Position numbers and translations under genes: made by a program
In this document: positions 7,327-23,674 of the stretch, piece by piece
Position numbering within the stretch: the stretch's first letter is position 1
Layout of the letters: each line of letters opens with the position of its first letter
Notes under the pieces: model-generated
What the model was told of the DNA's origin: nothing
What the model saw: only the letters and a program-made list of their open reading frames with translations
The model's database searches: none
Source: a virus
Direction: 5' to 3' (one strand)
Virus record (IMG/VR): IMGVR_UViG_3300001589_000033
Span: 19,853-45,304 of that record
Length of the DNA stretch: 25,452 nt

Positions 7327-7511
7327 ACTGGTTATTATTTGTAATAAGTTTTACATTAACCGAAGGAGGTTATGCTAGAGATGCAGATACAAAGATGACA
7401 TTATTTAATGAGTATAAGACTAAAACAAGTTGTGAAATTGTAAGAGATCAACTTATGGAAAACTTTACAACAGGTGAAATTGCAGTCTGTATAGAGGATA
7501 AAGATGAATAA
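7323..7511 (+). CDS. Small exported protein with N-terminal hydrophobic segment
   Basis: 62 residues from ATG 7323, which forms an ATGA overlap with the upstream stop; the GTG at 7317 is a less likely start. Residues 2-13 are hydrophobic (NWLLFVISFTLT) and followed by GGYARDA, consistent with a short signal peptide or anchor. Two Cys (37, 56) could form a disulfide in the periplasm. Function unknown. Confidence 0.6.
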   Translation: MNWLLFVISFTLTEGGYARDADTKMTLFNEYKTKTSCEIVRDQLMENFTTGEIAVCIEDKDE

Positions 7512-8208
7512 GTTTATATTTGATGTAGACGGAACACTAACACCAAGTCGTGGAAAGATAGACGAAAAGTTTGCACAGTTCTTCTTTGACTTTTGCACAC
7601 TGCATCATGTTTATCTTGTTACAGGTAGTGACAAACCTAAAACAGTTGAACAAATAGGCAACGTAATTTATGGTATGGCTAAACGTGTTTATAACTGTTC
7701 AGGTAGTGAGGTATGGAAAGGTTCCGAATTAATTAAAGTTAACGACTGGACTATACCTATGCACGTTAAATCGTGGTTACAAGATAAATTAGAAGAGAGT
7801 ACATTTCCGTTACGTACAGGGTTGCATATTGAAGAACGATCAGGTATGATAAACTTTAGTGTTGTTGGTCGTAATGCTACAATTGGTGAAAGAAAACTGT
7901 ATGTAAAGCATGATACAAAAAACAACGAACGTGATTATATTGCAGAGTTATTTAATTTAGACTTTCCAGAACTAATTGCAAGACCGGGTGGAGAAACTGG
8001 TATTGACATTAGTCCTAAAGGTTCTGATAAAAGTCAAATAGTAAATGATTTTGACCCTAATCATACATTACATTTTTACGGAGACAGAATGGATGTACAT
8101 GGTAATGATTACCCTTTGAAAAAAGTAATAATAGATAATGATTTAGGGTTTGCAGTTGAAGTACACGATTGGAAAGATACATGGACTAAACTAAAGGAAC
8201 TTGTATGA
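7504..8208 (+). CDS. Eukaryotic-type phosphomannomutase (HAD family)
   Basis: 234 residues, near the 246 of human PMM2. HAD motif I FDVDGTLTPS gives nucleophile D7 and acid/base D9. NFSVVGRNATIGER (117-130) matches the PMM substrate segment with conserved Arg123. The acidic Mg site is FYGDRMDVHGND (191-202). This eukaryotic-type PMM family, unrelated to the bacterial ManB/AlgC type, interconverts mannose-6-P and mannose-1-P, the precursor of GDP-mannose. It lies in an overlapping operon with a nucleotidyltransferase upstream and a nucleotide-sugar dehydrogenase downstream, suggesting a sugar-nucleotide pathway. No GDP-mannose pyrophosphorylase is visible in the window. Confidence 0.85.
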   Translation: MNKFIFDVDGTLTPSRGKIDEKFAQFFFDFCTLHHVYLVTGSDKPKTVEQIGNVIYGMAKRVYNCSGSEVWKGSELIKVNDWTIPMHVKSWLQDKLEESTFPLRTGLHIEERSGMINFSVVGRNATIGERKLYVKHDTKNNERDYIAELFNLDFPELIARPGGETGIDISPKGSDKSQIVNDFDPNHTLHFYGDRMDVHGNDYPLKKVIIDNDLGFAVEVHDWKDTWTKLKELV

Positions 8209-8984
8209 GAATACTAGTAGTAGGTTATGGATTTGTAGGTTATGCTTTTGATAAAGCAGTTAATACAACAAATGAAGTTAGTATAAGTGATCCTGCAAAA
8301 GGTCACTTATATGATTATCATGATGAAATACATCCCCAGGGAATTGTAGTATGTGTGTCAACGCCTCAAAACGAAGATGGTTCGTGTAATATTGATAATG
8401 TATACCAAGTAATTGAGAAAGCACCAAACGTACCTATTTTAATTAAAAGTACTATTAGTTTAGAAGGTTGGGAATTTCTAAAAAAATCTTTTCCTAATAA
8501 AAGCATGTGCTTTAATCCAGAATTTTTAAGAGCAAAAACAGCAGTTGAAGATTTCGAGAATATGGCATATACTATAATTGCAGGCGAACAGGAAGACACA
8601 AAATTTTGGAATACCTGGTTCAAAAAACAAGTATGTTGGTCAGACTTAAGAATTTATAACTGTCCTGTTCCTGAAGCAATTACTCTTAAGTATGCAGAAA
8701 ATAGTTTTCTTGCCCTTAAGGTAAGTTTTTTTAATCAAATATACGACTTTTGTAAACTAACAAATCAAGACTTTGAAACTGTACGTGACTTACTATGCTT
8801 AGACAAACGGATAGGTGATGATCATAGTATGGTTACAGAAGAAAGAGGTTGGGGAGGACATTGTTTTCCTAAGGATACATCTGCTTTCCTAAAAACAGCA
8901 GAGAAATATGGTTATGATCTAAATATACTTAGAATAGCAGTAGATTATAATAAACAGATAAGAAAAACTGTTGACAATCAATAG
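8205..8984 (+). CDS. Shortened UDP-glucose/GDP-mannose dehydrogenase family protein
   Basis: 259 residues. The N-terminal Rossmann fold has GYGFVG (7-12), then STPQNEDGS, KSTI and FNPEFLRAKTAVEDF. The central domain carries K162 and N166 in LKYAENSFLA and catalytic Cys220 in GWGGHCFPKD. All catalytic residues are present, but it ends about 40 residues after the Cys. Usual family members are near 390-450 residues and have a C-terminal nucleotide-sugar-binding domain that is absent here. The enzyme oxidises a nucleotide sugar to its uronic acid with NAD; the substrate is open. The stop is followed by the clamp gene promoter, not by a broken remnant, so this looks like a settled short form. It overlaps the phosphomannomutase gene by four bases. 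Confidence 0.85.
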   Translation: MRILVVGYGFVGYAFDKAVNTTNEVSISDPAKGHLYDYHDEIHPQGIVVCVSTPQNEDGSCNIDNVYQVIEKAPNVPILIKSTISLEGWEFLKKSFPNKSMCFNPEFLRAKTAVEDFENMAYTIIAGEQEDTKFWNTWFKKQVCWSDLRIYNCPVPEAITLKYAENSFLALKVSFFNQIYDFCKLTNQDFETVRDLLCLDKRIGDDHSMVTEERGWGGHCFPKDTSAFLKTAEKYGYDLNILRIAVDYNKQIRKTVDNQ

Positions 8985-16654: not shown

Positions 16655-17554
16655 ATGAAAGAAGAAAAGAAATACTACTATAGTGAGATATTTCACAGTA
16701 TACAAGGTGAAGGACATTATACAGGTGTACCTACTGCTTGGATACGATTCTTTCTATGCAATTTACAATGCAATGGATTTGGACAACTGTTTCCTACTAA
16801 ACCTGATACATATGAATTACCGTTTGAAGACTTTGATGTATCCAGTGTAAGCAGAGTAGAAGATTTACCAGTTTGGGATAAAGGTTGCGATAGTAGTTAT
16901 ACTTGGGCTAAAAAGTTTAAAAGTCTAATGGGGCAAGAAACTCCAACAGTACTAGCAAATAAGATTGTTGATATTATGAAAAATGAAAGCAACCCAGAAG
17001 GATTGTTTTTACATCCAGTAAGTAAGCAACAACAACATTTGTGTATTACAGGTGGCGAACCTCTTATGGTGACAGGGCAAATGGCTACTATAGGAATACA
17101 CAACGAACTAGTAAAACAGAATAATGTACCGAGTAGTATGACGTTTGAAACTAACGGAACACAACGATTACGTCCTGAGTTTATGGAGTGGGGTACTAAT
17201 ACTGATACAGAATTATTTTTTAGTGTTAGTCCTAAGTTATGGACGGTTGCAGGTGAAAAAACAGAAAAAGCAATTAAACCTGAGATAGTAGCAGACTACT
17301 ATAAAGTTAGTAAAACTGGGCAACTAAAATTTGTTGTAGGACACTTAGATGAACAATGGGAAGAAATGGAAACTGTAATTACACAGTTTAGAGAAGCAGG
17401 AGTTGACTATCCTGTTTGGGTTATGCCAGTTGGAGCAAGATCAGAAGAACAAGAAGAAAGTGCAGGAGCAGTAGCAGAAAGAGCATTTAAACGTGGTTAT
17501 AATGTAGCGGCTCGTGTACATGTTTACTTGTTTGGTAACGCAATAGGAACTTAA
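16655..17554 (+). CDS. queE: QueE-type 7-carboxy-7-deazaguanine synthase (radical SAM) with split Cys motif
   Basis: 299 residues. SEIFHSIQGEGHYTGVPTAW (10-29) is the QueE opening. The cluster Cys are unusual: C35 and C39 in FLCNLQC, then the third, C78 in KGCDSSYTW, after a 38-residue insertion where standard QueE has CxxC. CITGGEPLM (GGEP 133-136) and the later TFETNGT strand bind SAM and substrate. QueE converts 6-carboxy-tetrahydropterin to 7-carboxy-7-deazaguanine, the core step to preQ0. No queC, queD or folE is certain in the window. Own promoter with no upstream overlap suggests a separate transcription unit. With the TGT-like gene it implies 7-deazaguanine supply for nucleic-acid modification. 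Confidence 0.85.
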   Translation: MKEEKKYYYSEIFHSIQGEGHYTGVPTAWIRFFLCNLQCNGFGQLFPTKPDTYELPFEDFDVSSVSRVEDLPVWDKGCDSSYTWAKKFKSLMGQETPTVLANKIVDIMKNESNPEGLFLHPVSKQQQHLCITGGEPLMVTGQMATIGIHNELVKQNNVPSSMTFETNGTQRLRPEFMEWGTNTDTELFFSVSPKLWTVAGEKTEKAIKPEIVADYYKVSKTGQLKFVVGHLDEQWEEMETVITQFREAGVDYPVWVMPVGARSEEQEESAGAVAERAFKRGYNVAARVHVYLFGNAIGT

Positions 17555-18622: not shown

Positions 18623-18651
18623 TTGACAACAGCCAGATCTGGTGCTATAAT
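18623..18651 (+). promoter_or_regulatory. Consensus sigma70-type promoter for rnh, with palindrome in spacer
   Basis: TTGACA (18623-18628), 17-base spacer, TATAAT (18646-18651) with extended -10 (GTGcTATAAT). The spacer contains the perfect palindrome CCAGATCTGG (18633-18642), a possible operator. Confidence 0.85.
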
Positions 18652-18680: not shown

Positions 18681-19670
18681 ATGGCAACTTATATTCTAGT
18701 AGACACAGCAAATACATTCTTTCGTGCAAGGCATGTAGTACGTGGCGATATTGATACTAAGGTTGGTATGGCACTACATATTACTCTTGCAGGTGTTAAG
18801 AAGGCATGGAAAGACTTTAATGCAGATCATGTTGTGTTTTGTTTAGAAGGTCGTAGCTGGCGCAAGGACTTTTATGCACCTTACAAACGTAATAGGCAAG
18901 TAGCACGTGACAAGATGACTGTTACAGAAAGTGAAGAAGATAAAGTGTTTTGGGAAATCTTCGACGAGTTTAAAGACTTTGTTAGTACTAAAACTAACTG
19001 CACTGTTATGCAACACAAGCAACTAGAAGCAGATGATCTTATTGCAGGCTGGACACAAGCACATCCTAACGATAATCATATTATTATTAGTACTGACGGT
19101 GACTTTGCACAACTAATTGCACCTAATGTAAAACAGTATAACGGCATACAAAACACTATCATTACACACGAAGGTTACTTTGATGATAAGAAGCTAGAGC
19201 CAGTAATTGACAAGAAAACTAAAGAAGCAAAGCCTGCTCCGCAACCTGACTTTATGTTATTTGAAAAGTGTATGCGAGGCGACACTAGTGATAATGTGTT
19301 TAGTGCATACCCAGGTGTACGTAAGAAAGGTACTAAGAATAAAGTTGGCCTTGTTGAAGCATTTGCTGACAAAGATACAAAAGGCTACAACTGGAATAAT
19401 ATGATGTTACAACGATGGGTAGATCATGAAGGCGCAGAACATCGTGTACTTGATGACTATCAACGTAATGTTATCCTTTGTGACTTAACTGCTCAACCCG
19501 GTAACATTAGAAGCATCATTAACGATGTTGTAGAAGACCATATGACTCCTAAGACTGTAACACAAGTTGGTATGCGTCTTATGAAGTTTTGTGCTAAGTG
19601 GGATATGCAACGTATTGCAGACCAGGCACAACAATTTGCAGAACCATTACAAGCGAGGTACCCCGTATGA
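18681..19670 (+). CDS. rnh: 5' nuclease / RNase H, T4 Rnh-type (FEN family)
   Basis: 329 residues (T4 Rnh has 305). Metal-site motifs are in order: VDTANTFFRARH with D8, CLEGRSWRKDFYAPYKRNR with the basic arch segment (54-72), QLEADDLIAG with E116, D118 and D119, STDGDFAQL with D139 and D141, and GDTSDN with D201 and D204, followed by the helix-hairpin PGVRKKGTKNK. T4 Rnh removes RNA primers and flaps from the lagging strand in concert with gp32 and gp45. A strong promoter and 23-base leader precede it. The following gene overlaps by four bases. Confidence 0.92.
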   Translation: MATYILVDTANTFFRARHVVRGDIDTKVGMALHITLAGVKKAWKDFNADHVVFCLEGRSWRKDFYAPYKRNRQVARDKMTVTESEEDKVFWEIFDEFKDFVSTKTNCTVMQHKQLEADDLIAGWTQAHPNDNHIIISTDGDFAQLIAPNVKQYNGIQNTIITHEGYFDDKKLEPVIDKKTKEAKPAPQPDFMLFEKCMRGDTSDNVFSAYPGVRKKGTKNKVGLVEAFADKDTKGYNWNNMMLQRWVDHEGAEHRVLDDYQRNVILCDLTAQPGNIRSIINDVVEDHMTPKTVTQVGMRLMKFCAKWDMQRIADQAQQFAEPLQARYPV

Positions 19671-20131
19671 CAATAAAAGCAAAAGAAGTATTAAAAGGTA
19701 AATTTTGGATCGTTGAAGAGAACGGTAGTAAGGTAGGTACATTAAGTGCCGCCGAAGAATGTTATACTTATAGTTGTGCTAATGGCGTTGAAGTTTTTAG
19801 TAGTTTTAACCAACTTAAAGAAAAGTTAGGTAAAGTTAATTGGACTGCTGGCGATGCACCCCCAGACGGTGAGAAAGAATGTCATAGCTATCCAACTAGC
19901 TGTGTTCCATATAATCCAATGTATGACGTAAAGAATAAATTACCATTATTTACAAAAAGTAACAAAAGTAAAAGTCTTTACTGTGCAGGATACTATTGTA
20001 TACAGTTTGATAAAGGTTGGGTAAAAAGTTTTTGCCCTAAACTTATTACTATCGAAAGATATAACTATAGTGGTCCATTTAAGACAGATATTGAAATGAG
20101 AACGGAGTTAAGTCGTGTCAACAGTCTCTGA
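19667..20131 (+). CDS. Conserved phage protein of unknown function
   Basis: 154 residues from ATG 19667 (ATGA overlap with rnh). It opens with KEVLKGKFWIVEENGSKVGTL, a strand-rich module seen in small proteins beside rnh in marine T4-like phages. A central Cys-rich stretch (YPTSCVPYNPMYDV) and SLYCAGYYCIQFDKGWVKSFCPKLIT carry most of its Cys. No named domain. Placement after rnh suggests a replication or nucleic-acid link, by neighbourhood only. Confidence 0.7.
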   Translation: MTIKAKEVLKGKFWIVEENGSKVGTLSAAEECYTYSCANGVEVFSSFNQLKEKLGKVNWTAGDAPPDGEKECHSYPTSCVPYNPMYDVKNKLPLFTKSNKSKSLYCAGYYCIQFDKGWVKSFCPKLITIERYNYSGPFKTDIEMRTELSRVNSL

Positions 20132-20715: not shown

Positions 20716-21098
20716 ACTGGAAAGCCACATACACTAAAATTTTTTTAAAACAGTTAAACATTGCTATTAGTGAAGCAACATTAAAAGAATATACTCCTGT
20801 TTGGTGGCAAAATAACAGATCAAAAGAAACAGGTGGATTACGTTTAACTGATGAAGGTATTCGAGTTTTAACTGATGACGTACAGTTAGCAACTTATGAC
20901 GTACCTTTTCCAAAAGACTTCGAACTTACGACAAATGCTTTAATTTGGTTAGATCAATTTATCGACTGCCCTTGGTGGCTAGGACGACACGGAATGGTTG
21001 TAACGGACGAAAGAAAGGCTGTCGAACTAAGTCTTTTTTCCGGAGATGTTCGTAAGTATGGAATAACAAAAGCATTAAATAGACAAAATAAAGGTTGA
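20712..21098 (+). CDS. Conserved phage protein of unknown function
   Basis: 128 residues. GLRLTDEGIRVLTDDVQLATYDVPFP (42-67) reads as a winged-helix-like segment, followed by FIDCPWWLGRHGMVVTDERKAVELSLFSGDVRKYG. I recall the last part from marine T4-like phages. DNA binding is possible from the helix-strand layout but unproven. The promoter of the AAA+ gene overlaps its stop codon. Confidence 0.7.
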   Translation: MNWKATYTKIFLKQLNIAISEATLKEYTPVWWQNNRSKETGGLRLTDEGIRVLTDDVQLATYDVPFPKDFELTTNALIWLDQFIDCPWWLGRHGMVVTDERKAVELSLFSGDVRKYGITKALNRQNKG

Positions 21099-21123
21099 CC
21101 TTTAGTAATAGTGGTGCTATAGT
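21095..21123 (+). promoter_or_regulatory. Sigma70-type promoter for AAA+ gene
   Basis: TTGACC (21095-21100), 17-base spacer, TATAGT (21118-21123) with extended -10 (GTGcTATAGT). The leader is about 44 bases, with AAGGA before ATG 21174. Confidence 0.75.
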
Positions 21124-21173: not shown

Positions 21174-22259
21174 ATGGAACAACTAGTAGTACGTCAAGTT
21201 ACTCCAAACGGAGCAAAGAAAAGCATTGTAAGAGCTTTTAAGAAAAAACGTCCAATATTTTTATGGGGACCTCCGGGTATTGGTAAGTCAGAAGTAATTG
21301 AACAAATTACAGACGATCTTGGAGATAGTAAATTAATTGACATTCGTTTGTCGCTATGGGATCCTACAGATATTAAAGGTATGCCATATTATAGTGCAAA
21401 CGATAATACAATGAAATGGGCACCGCCTGCAGAACTTCCTACAGAGGAAGAAGCGGCAAAATACAAATGGATCGTTGTATTTTTAGATGAAATGAATTCG
21501 GCAGCACCAGCTGTACAAGCGGCGGCTTATCAGTTGATACTAAATCGTAGAGTAGGACAATACACTCTACCAGATAATGTGTTACTTGTAGCGGCAGGTA
21601 ATAGAGATGCTGACAAAGGTGTTACTTATAGAATGCCTGCTCCGTTAGCAAATAGATTTGTTCACTTAGAACTTCGTGTAGATTTTGACGATTGGTTTCA
21701 GTGGGCAGTACAGAACAATATACACAAAGACGTTGTAGGTTACTTAACTTTTGCTAAAAAGGACCTATACGACTTTGATCCGCGTTCACCGAGTCGTGCT
21801 TTTGCTACACCTCGATCTTGGGCCTTTGCGTCTGATTTAATCGAGGACGATGACGATGAAACTACCACTGATTTACTCAGTGGTACAGTTGGGGAAGGGT
21901 TGGCTGTCAAGTTCATGGCTCACCGTAAGGTTGCGGCGAGTATGCCTAATCCAACTGAAATACTAGCAGGTAAGATAAAAGAGTTGAAAACCAAAGAAAT
22001 CAGTGCCATGTATTCCTTAACGGTTTCGCTCTGTTATGAATTAAAAGAATCATCAGACAAAGGCGATAAAAAGTTTGATGACAAAGTTAATAACTTCCTG
22101 CGATTTGCAATGGATAACTTTGAAACAGAATTAGTTGTAATGGGCATACGCCTTGCTATTACACAATATCAACTTCCAATCGATCCAGATGAAGTTGAAT
22201 GTTTTGATGAATTCCATGAGCGATATGGAAAGTACATACAGGCCGCAAACGGTCAATAA
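21174..22259 (+). CDS. MoxR-type AAA+ ATPase
   Basis: 361 residues. Walker A is GPPGIGKS (32-39), Walker B VVFLDE (101-106), sensor 1 Asn143 in AAGNRD, and the arginine finger region R161 in APLANRF. SLWDPTDIKGMP and the insert around the ATPase are typical of MoxR proteins, which act as chaperone-like ATPases with VWA-domain partners. The C-terminal part (about 190-361) is helical with an acidic stretch (EDDDDE). The gene ends just before a hairpin and the separate promoter of its likely partner at 22358. Two-gene pairing is the strongest support for function: remodelling or metal insertion into an unknown target. Confidence 0.9.
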   Translation: MEQLVVRQVTPNGAKKSIVRAFKKKRPIFLWGPPGIGKSEVIEQITDDLGDSKLIDIRLSLWDPTDIKGMPYYSANDNTMKWAPPAELPTEEEAAKYKWIVVFLDEMNSAAPAVQAAAYQLILNRRVGQYTLPDNVLLVAAGNRDADKGVTYRMPAPLANRFVHLELRVDFDDWFQWAVQNNIHKDVVGYLTFAKKDLYDFDPRSPSRAFATPRSWAFASDLIEDDDDETTTDLLSGTVGEGLAVKFMAHRKVAASMPNPTEILAGKIKELKTKEISAMYSLTVSLCYELKESSDKGDKKFDDKVNNFLRFAMDNFETELVVMGIRLAITQYQLPIDPDEVECFDEFHERYGKYIQAANGQ

Positions 22260-22266
22260 TGTATAT

Positions 22267-22292
22267 GGTAGAGTGTTCTTTTACACTCTACC
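22267..22292 (+). terminator. Hairpin between AAA+ and VWA genes
   Basis: GGTAGAGTGT (22267-22276) pairs perfectly with ACACTCTACC (22283-22292) around a 6-base TCTTTT loop. The T-tract after it is poor, so it may be a partial terminator or an mRNA stabiliser. Confidence 0.55.
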
Positions 22293-22304
22293 TATCCATT
22301 TCGG

Positions 22305-22332
22305 TTGACTTATAGTACAACGATGCTATACT
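22305..22332 (+). promoter_or_regulatory. Sigma70-type promoter for VWA gene
   Basis: TTGACT (22305-22310), 16-base spacer, TATACT (22327-22332) with extended -10 (ATGcTATACT). The leader is about 19 bases before ATG 22358. Confidence 0.7.
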
Positions 22333-22357
22333 GTATAAGTAATAAGGAGACATGGCA

Positions 22358-23674
22358 ATGACAATAGATACTAAAGGCTTTACACCAGTAGAACTTACAG
22401 ACGAAGAACTTGCTATAATGCGAGCAGATGTACACGATCGAGTAATTGTTGCTCGAGTAGGGTTGCTATTAAGACACCCGTTCTTTGGTAATATGGCAAC
22501 ACGTATGGCTGTTAAAAATTGTGATGACTGGTGCCCTACTGCGGCAACAGACGGAAAGACTCTTTATTACAATACACAATTTTTTAATATGTTAACTAAC
22601 AAACAGATTGAATTTGTTATTGCACATGAAATTTTACATTGTGTTTTTGATCATATTGTAAGACGCGAAGATAGAGATGGACCAATATATAATATTGCAT
22701 GTGATTATCTAGTTAATAATTGCCTTGTTCGTGATAGCATAGGTGAAGTAGTAACTCAAATTAAAATATTCCAAGACTTTAAATATGAGAATTGGTCATC
22801 TGAACAAGTGTATGATGATATCTTTGAAAAGTATGATGAAGAAGATTTAAAACAACTTGGACAATTACTAGACGAACATATTGATTGGGAAAAAGATGGC
22901 GATCAAGAAGGTGAAGCAGACGGTGGCAAACCTTGTTCTAGTAAAGAAGGTACTAGTAAAGAAGGCAAAGGTAAAGGCGAAAAAGGTAAAGGACGACCTA
23001 CCTATACTAAAAAACAACTAAAAAAGATACGTGACGAAATAAAAGAAAGTATGATATCTTCTGCACAAGCCGCTGGAGCAGGTAACTTACCAGGCGAAAT
23101 AGCACGTATGATTAGAGAGCTTACAGAACCTAAAATGAATTGGCGTGAACTTATTCGTCAGCAGGTTCAATCAACGATACGTAATGACTTTACATTTCAA
23201 AGACCGTCACGTAAAGGTTGGCACACTAATGCTATTATTCCAGGTATGAACTTTGATAACACTATTGATATTTGTATTGGTATTGATATGAGCGGATCAA
23301 TTGGTGATGCACAAGGTGCTGACTTCTTAGGAGAAGTTAAAGGTATTATGGAAGAATACGACGACTATAATATTAAGGTTTGGTGTTTTGATACTAAGGT
23401 TTATAATGAACAAGAGTTTAGTCCTGCTATAGGTGACGACTTACGTGATTATGAGCTTATGGGCGGCGGTGGCACTGACTTTATGTGCAACTGGAAATAC
23501 ATGAAAGATAATGATATTGTTCCAAAGAAATTTATTATGTTTACTGACGGGTATGCTTGGGATAGTTGGGGTGATTCGGACTATTGTGAGACATTATTTG
23601 TTATACATTCAAATAGAGATAAGAATCTAGAAAGTCCATTTGGTATGTCAGTACACTATGATGAGGCGGCATAA
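22358..23674 (+). CDS. Metallopeptidase-like plus VWA-domain protein (DUF2201-type)
   Basis: 438 residues from ATG 22358; AAGGAG sits eight bases upstream, while ATG 22352 is only two bases from it. Numbering below counts from 22352. The N-terminal domain holds HEILH (92-96) with a following CDYLVNN (D118 as possible third ligand), a zincin signature. Residues 181-217 are a low-complexity Gly/Lys/Glu linker. The C-terminal VWA has MIDAS DMSGS (312-316), T375 in GGGGTDF and D399 in FTDG, all present. This DUF2201-like order is found with MoxR ATPases in bacteria. The pair may form a chaperone or proteolytic system; the target is unknown. Confidence 0.88.
   Translation: MTIDTKGFTPVELTDEELAIMRADVHDRVIVARVGLLLRHPFFGNMATRMAVKNCDDWCPTAATDGKTLYYNTQFFNMLTNKQIEFVIAHEILHCVFDHIVRREDRDGPIYNIACDYLVNNCLVRDSIGEVVTQIKIFQDFKYENWSSEQVYDDIFEKYDEEDLKQLGQLLDEHIDWEKDGDQEGEADGGKPCSSKEGTSKEGKGKGEKGKGRPTYTKKQLKKIRDEIKESMISSAQAAGAGNLPGEIARMIRELTEPKMNWRELIRQQVQSTIRNDFTFQRPSRKGWHTNAIIPGMNFDNTIDICIGIDMSGSIGDAQGADFLGEVKGIMEEYDDYNIKVWCFDTKVYNEQEFSPAIGDDLRDYELMGGGGTDFMCNWKYMKDNDIVPKKFIMFTDGYAWDSWGDSDYCETLFVIHSNRDKNLESPFGMSVHYDEAA

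Follow-up and report, generated by a model that had tools for sequence, protein, structure and literature searches.

Joint conservation and separate promoters of genes for a MoxR-type ATPase and a zincin-VWA protein in a phage replication region

The stretch of DNA analysed here (the window, 25,452 nucleotides) is part of a 45,304-base IMG/VR virus record (IMGVR_UViG_3300001589_000033, positions 19,853 to 45,304) and contains two consecutive genes, which encode a MoxR-type ATPase and a partner protein in which a zincin domain is joined to a VWA domain with a metal ion-dependent adhesion site (MIDAS). The pair had been singled out in an earlier reading of the letters and open reading frames (the original prediction), and is considered here in the light of homology searches, structure models and comparisons with relatives. 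The genes and the residues concerned are the following (window coordinates; invariance in the ATPase refers to 88 homologous sequences):

21174..22259, + strand: gene of the MoxR-type AAA+ ATPase, 361 amino acids (phrog_1297, homologue of N4 gp24; Pfam AAA/AAA_5)
21267..21290, + strand: Walker A, GPPGIGKS, residues 32-39 (K38 and S39 invariant)
21474..21491, + strand: Walker B, VVFLDE, residues 101-106 (D105 and E106 invariant)
21600..21602, + strand: sensor 1, N143 (invariant)
21654..21656, + strand: arginine finger, R161 (invariant; role assigned by AAA+ homology)
21813..21815, + strand: sensor 2, R214 in PRSW (invariant; role assigned by homology)
22352..23674, + strand: gene of the zincin-VWA partner, 440 amino acids (phrog_1314, homologue of N4 gp25; DUF2201_N followed by DUF2201)
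22448..23215, + strand: DUF2201_N putative metallopeptidase domain, residues 33-288 (Pfam PF13203)
22625..22654, + strand: HEILHCVFDH, i.e. the HExxHxxxxH metal site (H92, E93, H96, H101), from motif conservation
22703..22717, + strand: D118-x3-N122, further residues that probably serve the metal site or the structure (invariant in 89 sequences)
23264..23659, + strand: VWA domain with MIDAS (D312-x-S314-x-S316, T375, D399; PF09967)

The ATPase matches phrog_1297 over its full length (E=2.8e-102, residues 7-357), and the Walker A, Walker B and sensor 1 motifs are intact, as had been read from the sequence. In a Foldseek search of the PDB with its AlphaFold2 model (predicted local distance difference test score, pLDDT, of 89.3), ranks 1-11 are taken by NorQ or NorQ-NorD VWA complexes and rank 15 by CbbQ, and a profile search adds a match to midasin. 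In terms of Pfam families, the protein passes the cut-off of AAA_5 (27.6 bits vs 22) and misses that of the MoxR-type family AAA_3 (23.4 bits vs 27). A gene for a VWA protein lies alongside, as expected of the MoxR family, and strands 70-74 and 79-83 of the model, which come after strand 52-58, were read as the beta-hairpin of the MoxR helix-2 insert. The nearest structural relatives, namely NorQ and CbbQ, agree with membership of the CGN subfamily (CbbQ/GvpN/NorQ), in which a tree has placed a cyanophage homologue (PMC9964418).

In the case of the partner, both Pfam and the alignment uphold the predicted fusion of an HEILH zincin (residues 92-96) to a VWA domain with a complete MIDAS. DUF2201_N (E=5e-43, 148 bits) and the VWA-like DUF2201 (E=1e-15, 58 bits) are each matched over their cut-offs, and the match to phrog_1314 has an E-value of 6e-108. 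Among 89 partner sequences H92, H96 and H101 are invariant and E93 is present in 88; D118 and N122 are also invariant in a set of 47 sequences that includes bacterial homologues, and the MIDAS residues are invariant among homologues. With the AlphaFold2 model (pLDDT 80.8), Foldseek relates the VWA part to integrin I domains and human MDN1-MIDAS, and a profile search against the PDB gives weak kinship of the zincin part to MJ1213 and an M48 peptidase. Both genes are under purifying selection, with a ratio of non-synonymous to synonymous substitution rates (dN/dS) of ~0.05-0.15 (0.05-0.11 for the zincin part). Translation of the partner probably begins at ATG 22358, the second one, and not at ATG 22352, because the spacing of the former from AAGGAG (22344-22349) is better.

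The identity of the partner is obscured in the databases. It is labelled 'HNH endonuclease' in PHROGs (phrog_1314) and in RefSeq (e.g. NC_008720, which is N4 gp25, NC_019526 and NC_023719), and elsewhere 'homing endonuclease' or 'Zn-dependent hydrolase'. We rejected the HNH identity, as the proteins of the window, of N4 and of other homologues show DUF2201_N and DUF2201 only; judged by this domain content, the label is an annotation error that has spread across many records.

The original prediction had named the lack of conserved pairing in relatives as the outcome that would speak against it. In a survey of 80 marine relatives, in which the partner is 64-84% identical, sequence upstream of the partner gene is available for 79, and every one of these has the ATPase gene immediately upstream in the same orientation, with a spacing that is usually 95-135 nucleotides. 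At larger distances (always <60% identity), tblastn found 763 phage records with the partner and 791 with the ATPase. Genome contigs yielded 38 partner loci, 31 of which also have the ATPase and most of the others end too early; the hosts include Hymenobacter, Anaerovibrio and Allobaculum. The two genes are retained even where they are no longer adjacent, i.e. on opposite strands with a few kb between them in rV5-like phages (Gotham, BIS47), separated or unlinked in phage G, and ~46 kb apart in Vibrio phage phiKT1024 (VWA near 82 kb, ATPase near 128 kb). In IMG/VR, searches for kin of N4 gp25 and of the PA5oct partner gave just 2 loci each. Two further loci are of separate interest: in Listeria phage LPJP1 (L136, 5055-7501) both genes are in fragments, being either pseudogenes or the result of sequencing errors, and a 335-kb contig of a Neomarinimicrobiota assembly (L091), binned as bacterial, contains a closely related pair (68% identity); gp23 matches in the assembly suggest that this contig is an unrecognised large phage.

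In a tree, the window groups with rV5-like, RaK2-like, PA5oct and Phosso/Atu_ph07 phages (99% in the Shimodaira-Hasegawa-like approximate likelihood ratio test, SH-aLRT), with GAP32 in the same clade. S-TIM66 is placed beside Hymenobacter (99%), phage G falls among Bacillota sequences (94%), and the N4-like phages stand apart. As phage lineages thus group with different bacteria, the pair may have been exchanged between phages and bacteria several times, a tentative reading since the tree is a quick one with long branches.

The original prediction had further assigned each gene its own promoter, with a 10-bp hairpin between them, and both were found. The regulatory elements, together with a third promoter of the same class and the gene that it precedes, are:

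18623..18651, + strand: same-class promoter ahead of the 5'-3' exonuclease gene (motif in 44 of 61 relatives)
18681..19670, + strand: 5'-3' exonuclease gene (phrog_107), ~1.5 kb upstream of the ATPase gene
21095..21123, + strand: ATPase promoter, TTGACC, 17 nucleotides, extended TGC, TATAGT (motif in 77 of 79 relatives)
22267..22292, + strand: 10-bp hairpin GGTAGAGTGT-TCTTTT-ACACTCTACC past the ATPase stop, terminator-like, with a poor T-run in this phage
22305..22332, + strand: zincin-VWA promoter, TTGACT, 16 nucleotides, extended TGC, TATACT (motif in 75 of 80 relatives)

The motif scored in the relatives is sigma-70-like (TTGAC, 15-18 nucleotides, TATWNT), and it precedes none of five further genes of the neighbourhood (0/68 to 0/78 for each). 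For the stricter pattern TTGAC...TGCTATA the window has exactly three occurrences, namely ahead of the exonuclease, ATPase and VWA genes, vs 0.05 expected. In the case of the hairpin, the intergenic fold has a z-score of -3.8, and a stem of at least 9 bp is present in 35 of 58 distinct relatives vs 6.6% of dinucleotide shuffles. The relatives have 33 different 5' arms, so that base pairing persists although the sequence varies, and many copies end in a T-run. Being conserved in relatives, the promoters and the hairpin are beyond what chance would give. From its sequence, the hairpin looks like an intrinsic terminator that splits the pair into two separate transcription units; read-through is likely at the copy in the window because its T-run is poor. 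As for the suggestion that the ratio of the two proteins may be controlled, the separate promoters and the terminator-like hairpin on which it was built hold up; they would permit such control, which is a possibility.

The placement of the pair inside a replication region was a fair description, as the window holds a DNA polymerase, nearest to those of the large phages Phosso (50%) and Atu_ph07 (45%), and the 5'-3' exonuclease. The exonuclease is kept in 56 of the 56 relatives with sufficient sequence, as is, in every such relative, the whole block from the exonuclease to the four open reading frames past the pair; the order of exonuclease and pair is identical in PA5oct, SCTP-2, Phosso and Atu_ph07. 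Across lineages the setting recurs, in that DNA- or nucleotide-metabolism genes are the annotated neighbours of the pair in most of them: thymidylate synthase in RaK2, GAP32, 2.275.O and S-TIM66 (ThyX), dCTP/dCMP deaminase in N4 and 4L372D, thymidylate kinase in BIS47, helicase or polymerase in Ab09 and phi 1, RNase H in phiFa, and an exonuclease in the window and in the four phages just named.

Other genes of the region were recorded in passing. A QueE-like radical S-adenosylmethionine gene (phrog_2076, window 16655-17554) adjoins the exonuclease gene, occurs in every relative with sufficient sequence (37 of 37), and suggests a deazaguanine-type pathway. At 7504-8984, within the DNA polymerase region, a phosphomannomutase-like gene precedes a short one of the UDP-glucose/GDP-mannose dehydrogenase type, both of sugar metabolism. 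Upstream of the window, the same record encodes a ClpA/ClpC-like protein of 744 amino acids that has two AAA+ modules and a Clp N-terminal domain (L153:12536-14767, phrog_4871), so the phage possesses another AAA+ unfoldase in addition to the pair. In a 185-kb marine relative a tryptophan halogenase-like protein (phrog_2928, minus strand, L144:15956-17182) lies a few kb from the pair. Known RNA families and tRNAs were not found in the window.

The original prediction regarded a role inside a T4-like phage replication region as not established; the pair as such is already on record. In Iyer et al. 2021 (PMC7824862), group 2.2 jumbo phages are described as carrying a MoxR-vWA pair that includes an N-terminal metallopeptidase, and a function in virion assembly is proposed. 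In N4, gp24 and gp25 belong to the middle transcripts and to the 14 N4-like core genes, as given in the available text of Chan 2014 (PMC4193335), and a comparison of 25 N4-like phages has them as core in every one; papers on N4-like phages call gp24 an ATPase and gp25 a vWFA protein or metallopeptidase (PMC2784036, PMC6992544). What stands of the original prediction is thus a MoxR-type ATPase and a zincin-VWA protein that are conserved together and separately promoted, not an unnoticed system. Compared with the available text of this literature, the gene-specific conserved promoters, the covarying hairpin, the losses of the zinc site, the repeated occurrence among nucleotide-metabolism genes and the wrong label of phrog_1314 are apparently new.

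We propose that the two genes encode a single machine of the NorQ-NorD or midasin kind, and as far as the architecture is concerned a NorQ-NorD-like remodeller is well supported. By homology, the ATPase would form an AAA+ ring, and the partner would dock on it through its VWA domain. An acidic residue of the client would be held by the MIDAS metal, and the client would be pulled on or remodelled by means of ATP hydrolysis. The zincin fused to the VWA domain would in most phages most likely cut the client thus presented, and cleavage is likely in the phage of the window. The pair would be expressed here as two separate units, with strong host-type promoters and the terminator-like hairpin between them, in a region of DNA replication and nucleotide metabolism; because of this arrangement the clients are most likely early or middle proteins, not capsid proteins. 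They would then be complexes of phage DNA or nucleotide metabolism, or host proteins under takeover, and a role of this kind and timing is the reading that we prefer, although we consider the case for it evenly balanced. The broader view, i.e. that phages have in the pair a general ATP-driven remodelling protease unlike Clp or Lon, repeatedly derived from bacteria and active in early or middle infection on such targets, with a MIDAS-ATPase core and an optional zinc protease, is more tentative, and we would sooner expect it to fail in that generality than to hold.

Other observations bear on this proposal, several of them against it. In its favour, the tree distances of the ATPase and the partner correlate with r=0.74 (permutation maximum 0.34), although such a test cannot tell physical interaction from mere co-inheritance, and shared descent could give part of the value. 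The type of promoter does no more than suggest early or middle timing: the T4 late promoter TATAAATA is rarer than expected in the window and occurs 6 times in 180 kb of a relative, so that it was dropped as an uninformative marker and a late promoter class could not be defined. With respect to proteolysis, E93 is kept in the window and in 80 of 80 marine relatives, but the catalytic glutamate is not invariant across the family. It is replaced by Q in Atu_ph07 (a search for close kin of this variant returned Atu_ph07 alone) and by T in a homologue on a Bacteroidetes contig (L106, with no ATPase within the sequenced stretch), and in a Sulfurimonas homologue (L115) the whole metal site is gone, with the MIDAS and the adjacent ATPase retained. 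These statistics leave aside an alignment-based IMG/VR scan, which covers mostly the same marine clade and whose pattern is biased to HExxH. Because the few homologues that lack the glutamate or the metal site keep the MIDAS, and the ATPase where this could be checked, the zincin would seem to be a dispensable add-on, and cleavage perhaps not the universal core function.

The main rival has the ATPase and VWA parts assembling tail or head components as a chaperone while the zincin, as a maturation protease, trims structural proteins. It was put forward in the available text of PMC7824862 by analogy with the MoxR-VWA pair of Acidianus two-tailed virus, and the same side gains from the virion-structural genes beside the pair in RaK2 and S-TIM66, from the second, mid-phase tail module near gp24/gp25 that the available text of PMC4193335 describes in RN4 phages, and from the 'ESI-MS/MS' (electrospray ionization tandem mass spectrometry) note on the record of the PA5oct ATPase, which is possibly virion-associated. 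A text search for virion proteomics, with the terms used, found no mention of the two proteins in the MIJ3 and RaK2 papers. However, in the available N4 accounts the genes are middle and not late, and homologues of gp24/gp25 are absent from the RPP1/RLP1 virion list as far as that source goes. The pair is moreover shared by podo- and myoviruses with unrelated tails, and the close relatives of the window's record, which have a T4-type gp23 capsid, possess their own T4-type prohead protease beside gp23: in the 185-kb marine relative the pair occupies 9-12 kb, and the block of portal, prohead protease and gp23 is found ~80 kb away, at 91-97 kb. On balance we regard virion assembly as unlikely.

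A pair that inserts a metal cofactor into, or activates, a phage or host metalloenzyme, like NorQ-NorD at the iron site of nitric oxide reductase or CbbQ-CbbO on Rubisco, would suit the nearest solved structures of the ATPase, the CGN placement of the cyanophage homologue, and the presence in the window of the QueE-like gene and a 2-oxoglutarate-Fe(II) oxygenase gene. We nevertheless find it improbable, as no single metalloenzyme was seen beside the pair across N4, rV5-like phages, RaK2-like phages, phage G and phiFa, and such factors do not need an HExxH site. Slightly less probable still is a protease for counter-defence or host takeover that inactivates an immune or housekeeping complex of the host. 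The early or middle placement, an AcrVA2-annotated gene near the pair in Pag-Yong1, the presence of the pair in bacteria and the occurrence of related MoxR-VWA systems in conflict systems (PMC7159879) fit it, but the genes are core in the N4-like phages, and their deep purifying conservation and stable synteny are unlike those of variable counter-defence genes. The suggestion of a defence module fared no better, and we rejected an anti-phage defence system: PADLOC has no family for the partner and only weak generic AAA matches for the ATPase (best DolB, E=4.7e-05), and the bpMoxR model is below its cut-off (16.5 bits vs 27). The latter also sets the pair apart from the VMAP/bpMoxR ternary conflict systems, the neighbours here being small phage open reading frames and the exonuclease.

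The pair occurs in more than 750 sequenced phage records, including that of the laboratory phage N4, where it is among the few N4-like core genes without a function, and the widespread 'HNH endonuclease' label hides it. If the pair is taken as a NorQ-NorD-like machine whose genes have conserved promoters of their own, and whose zinc site can disappear with ATPase and MIDAS retained, N4 offers a direct test of which part matters, and when.

Among known systems, N4 gp24/gp25 are closest in kind, with a homologous ATPase and DUF2201_N-DUF2201 protein in the same order, strand and replication-region setting and with the same motifs. The window proteins are, however, only ~27% (partner) and ~28% (ATPase) identical to them, and the N4 pair is transcribed by the phage's own middle RNA polymerase, whereas the pair in the window has sigma-70-like promoters. 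The pair of the group 2.2 jumbo phages shares domain architecture, pairing and the clade of RaK2, GAP32, PA5oct, Phosso and Atu_ph07; the available account of Iyer et al. 2021 is one of virion assembly, and the separate conserved promoters, the covarying hairpin and the active-site losses come from the present analysis. Midasin (Rea1/MDN1) has AAA+ units related by profile and a MIDAS domain of similar fold, but it is one giant polypeptide of ribosome assembly without a zincin. RavA-ViaA likewise combines a MoxR ATPase with a separate, chaperone-like VWA cofactor, although searches with the pair gave no direct sequence match to it and, to our knowledge, ViaA has no zincin. NorQ-NorD and CbbQ-CbbO, finally, consist of an AAA+ ring with a VWA partner, and among solved structures they come closest to the ATPase. 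We know of no DUF2201_N zincin in NorD or CbbO, and their clients are host enzymes; the phage ATPase has an extra C-terminal helical part.

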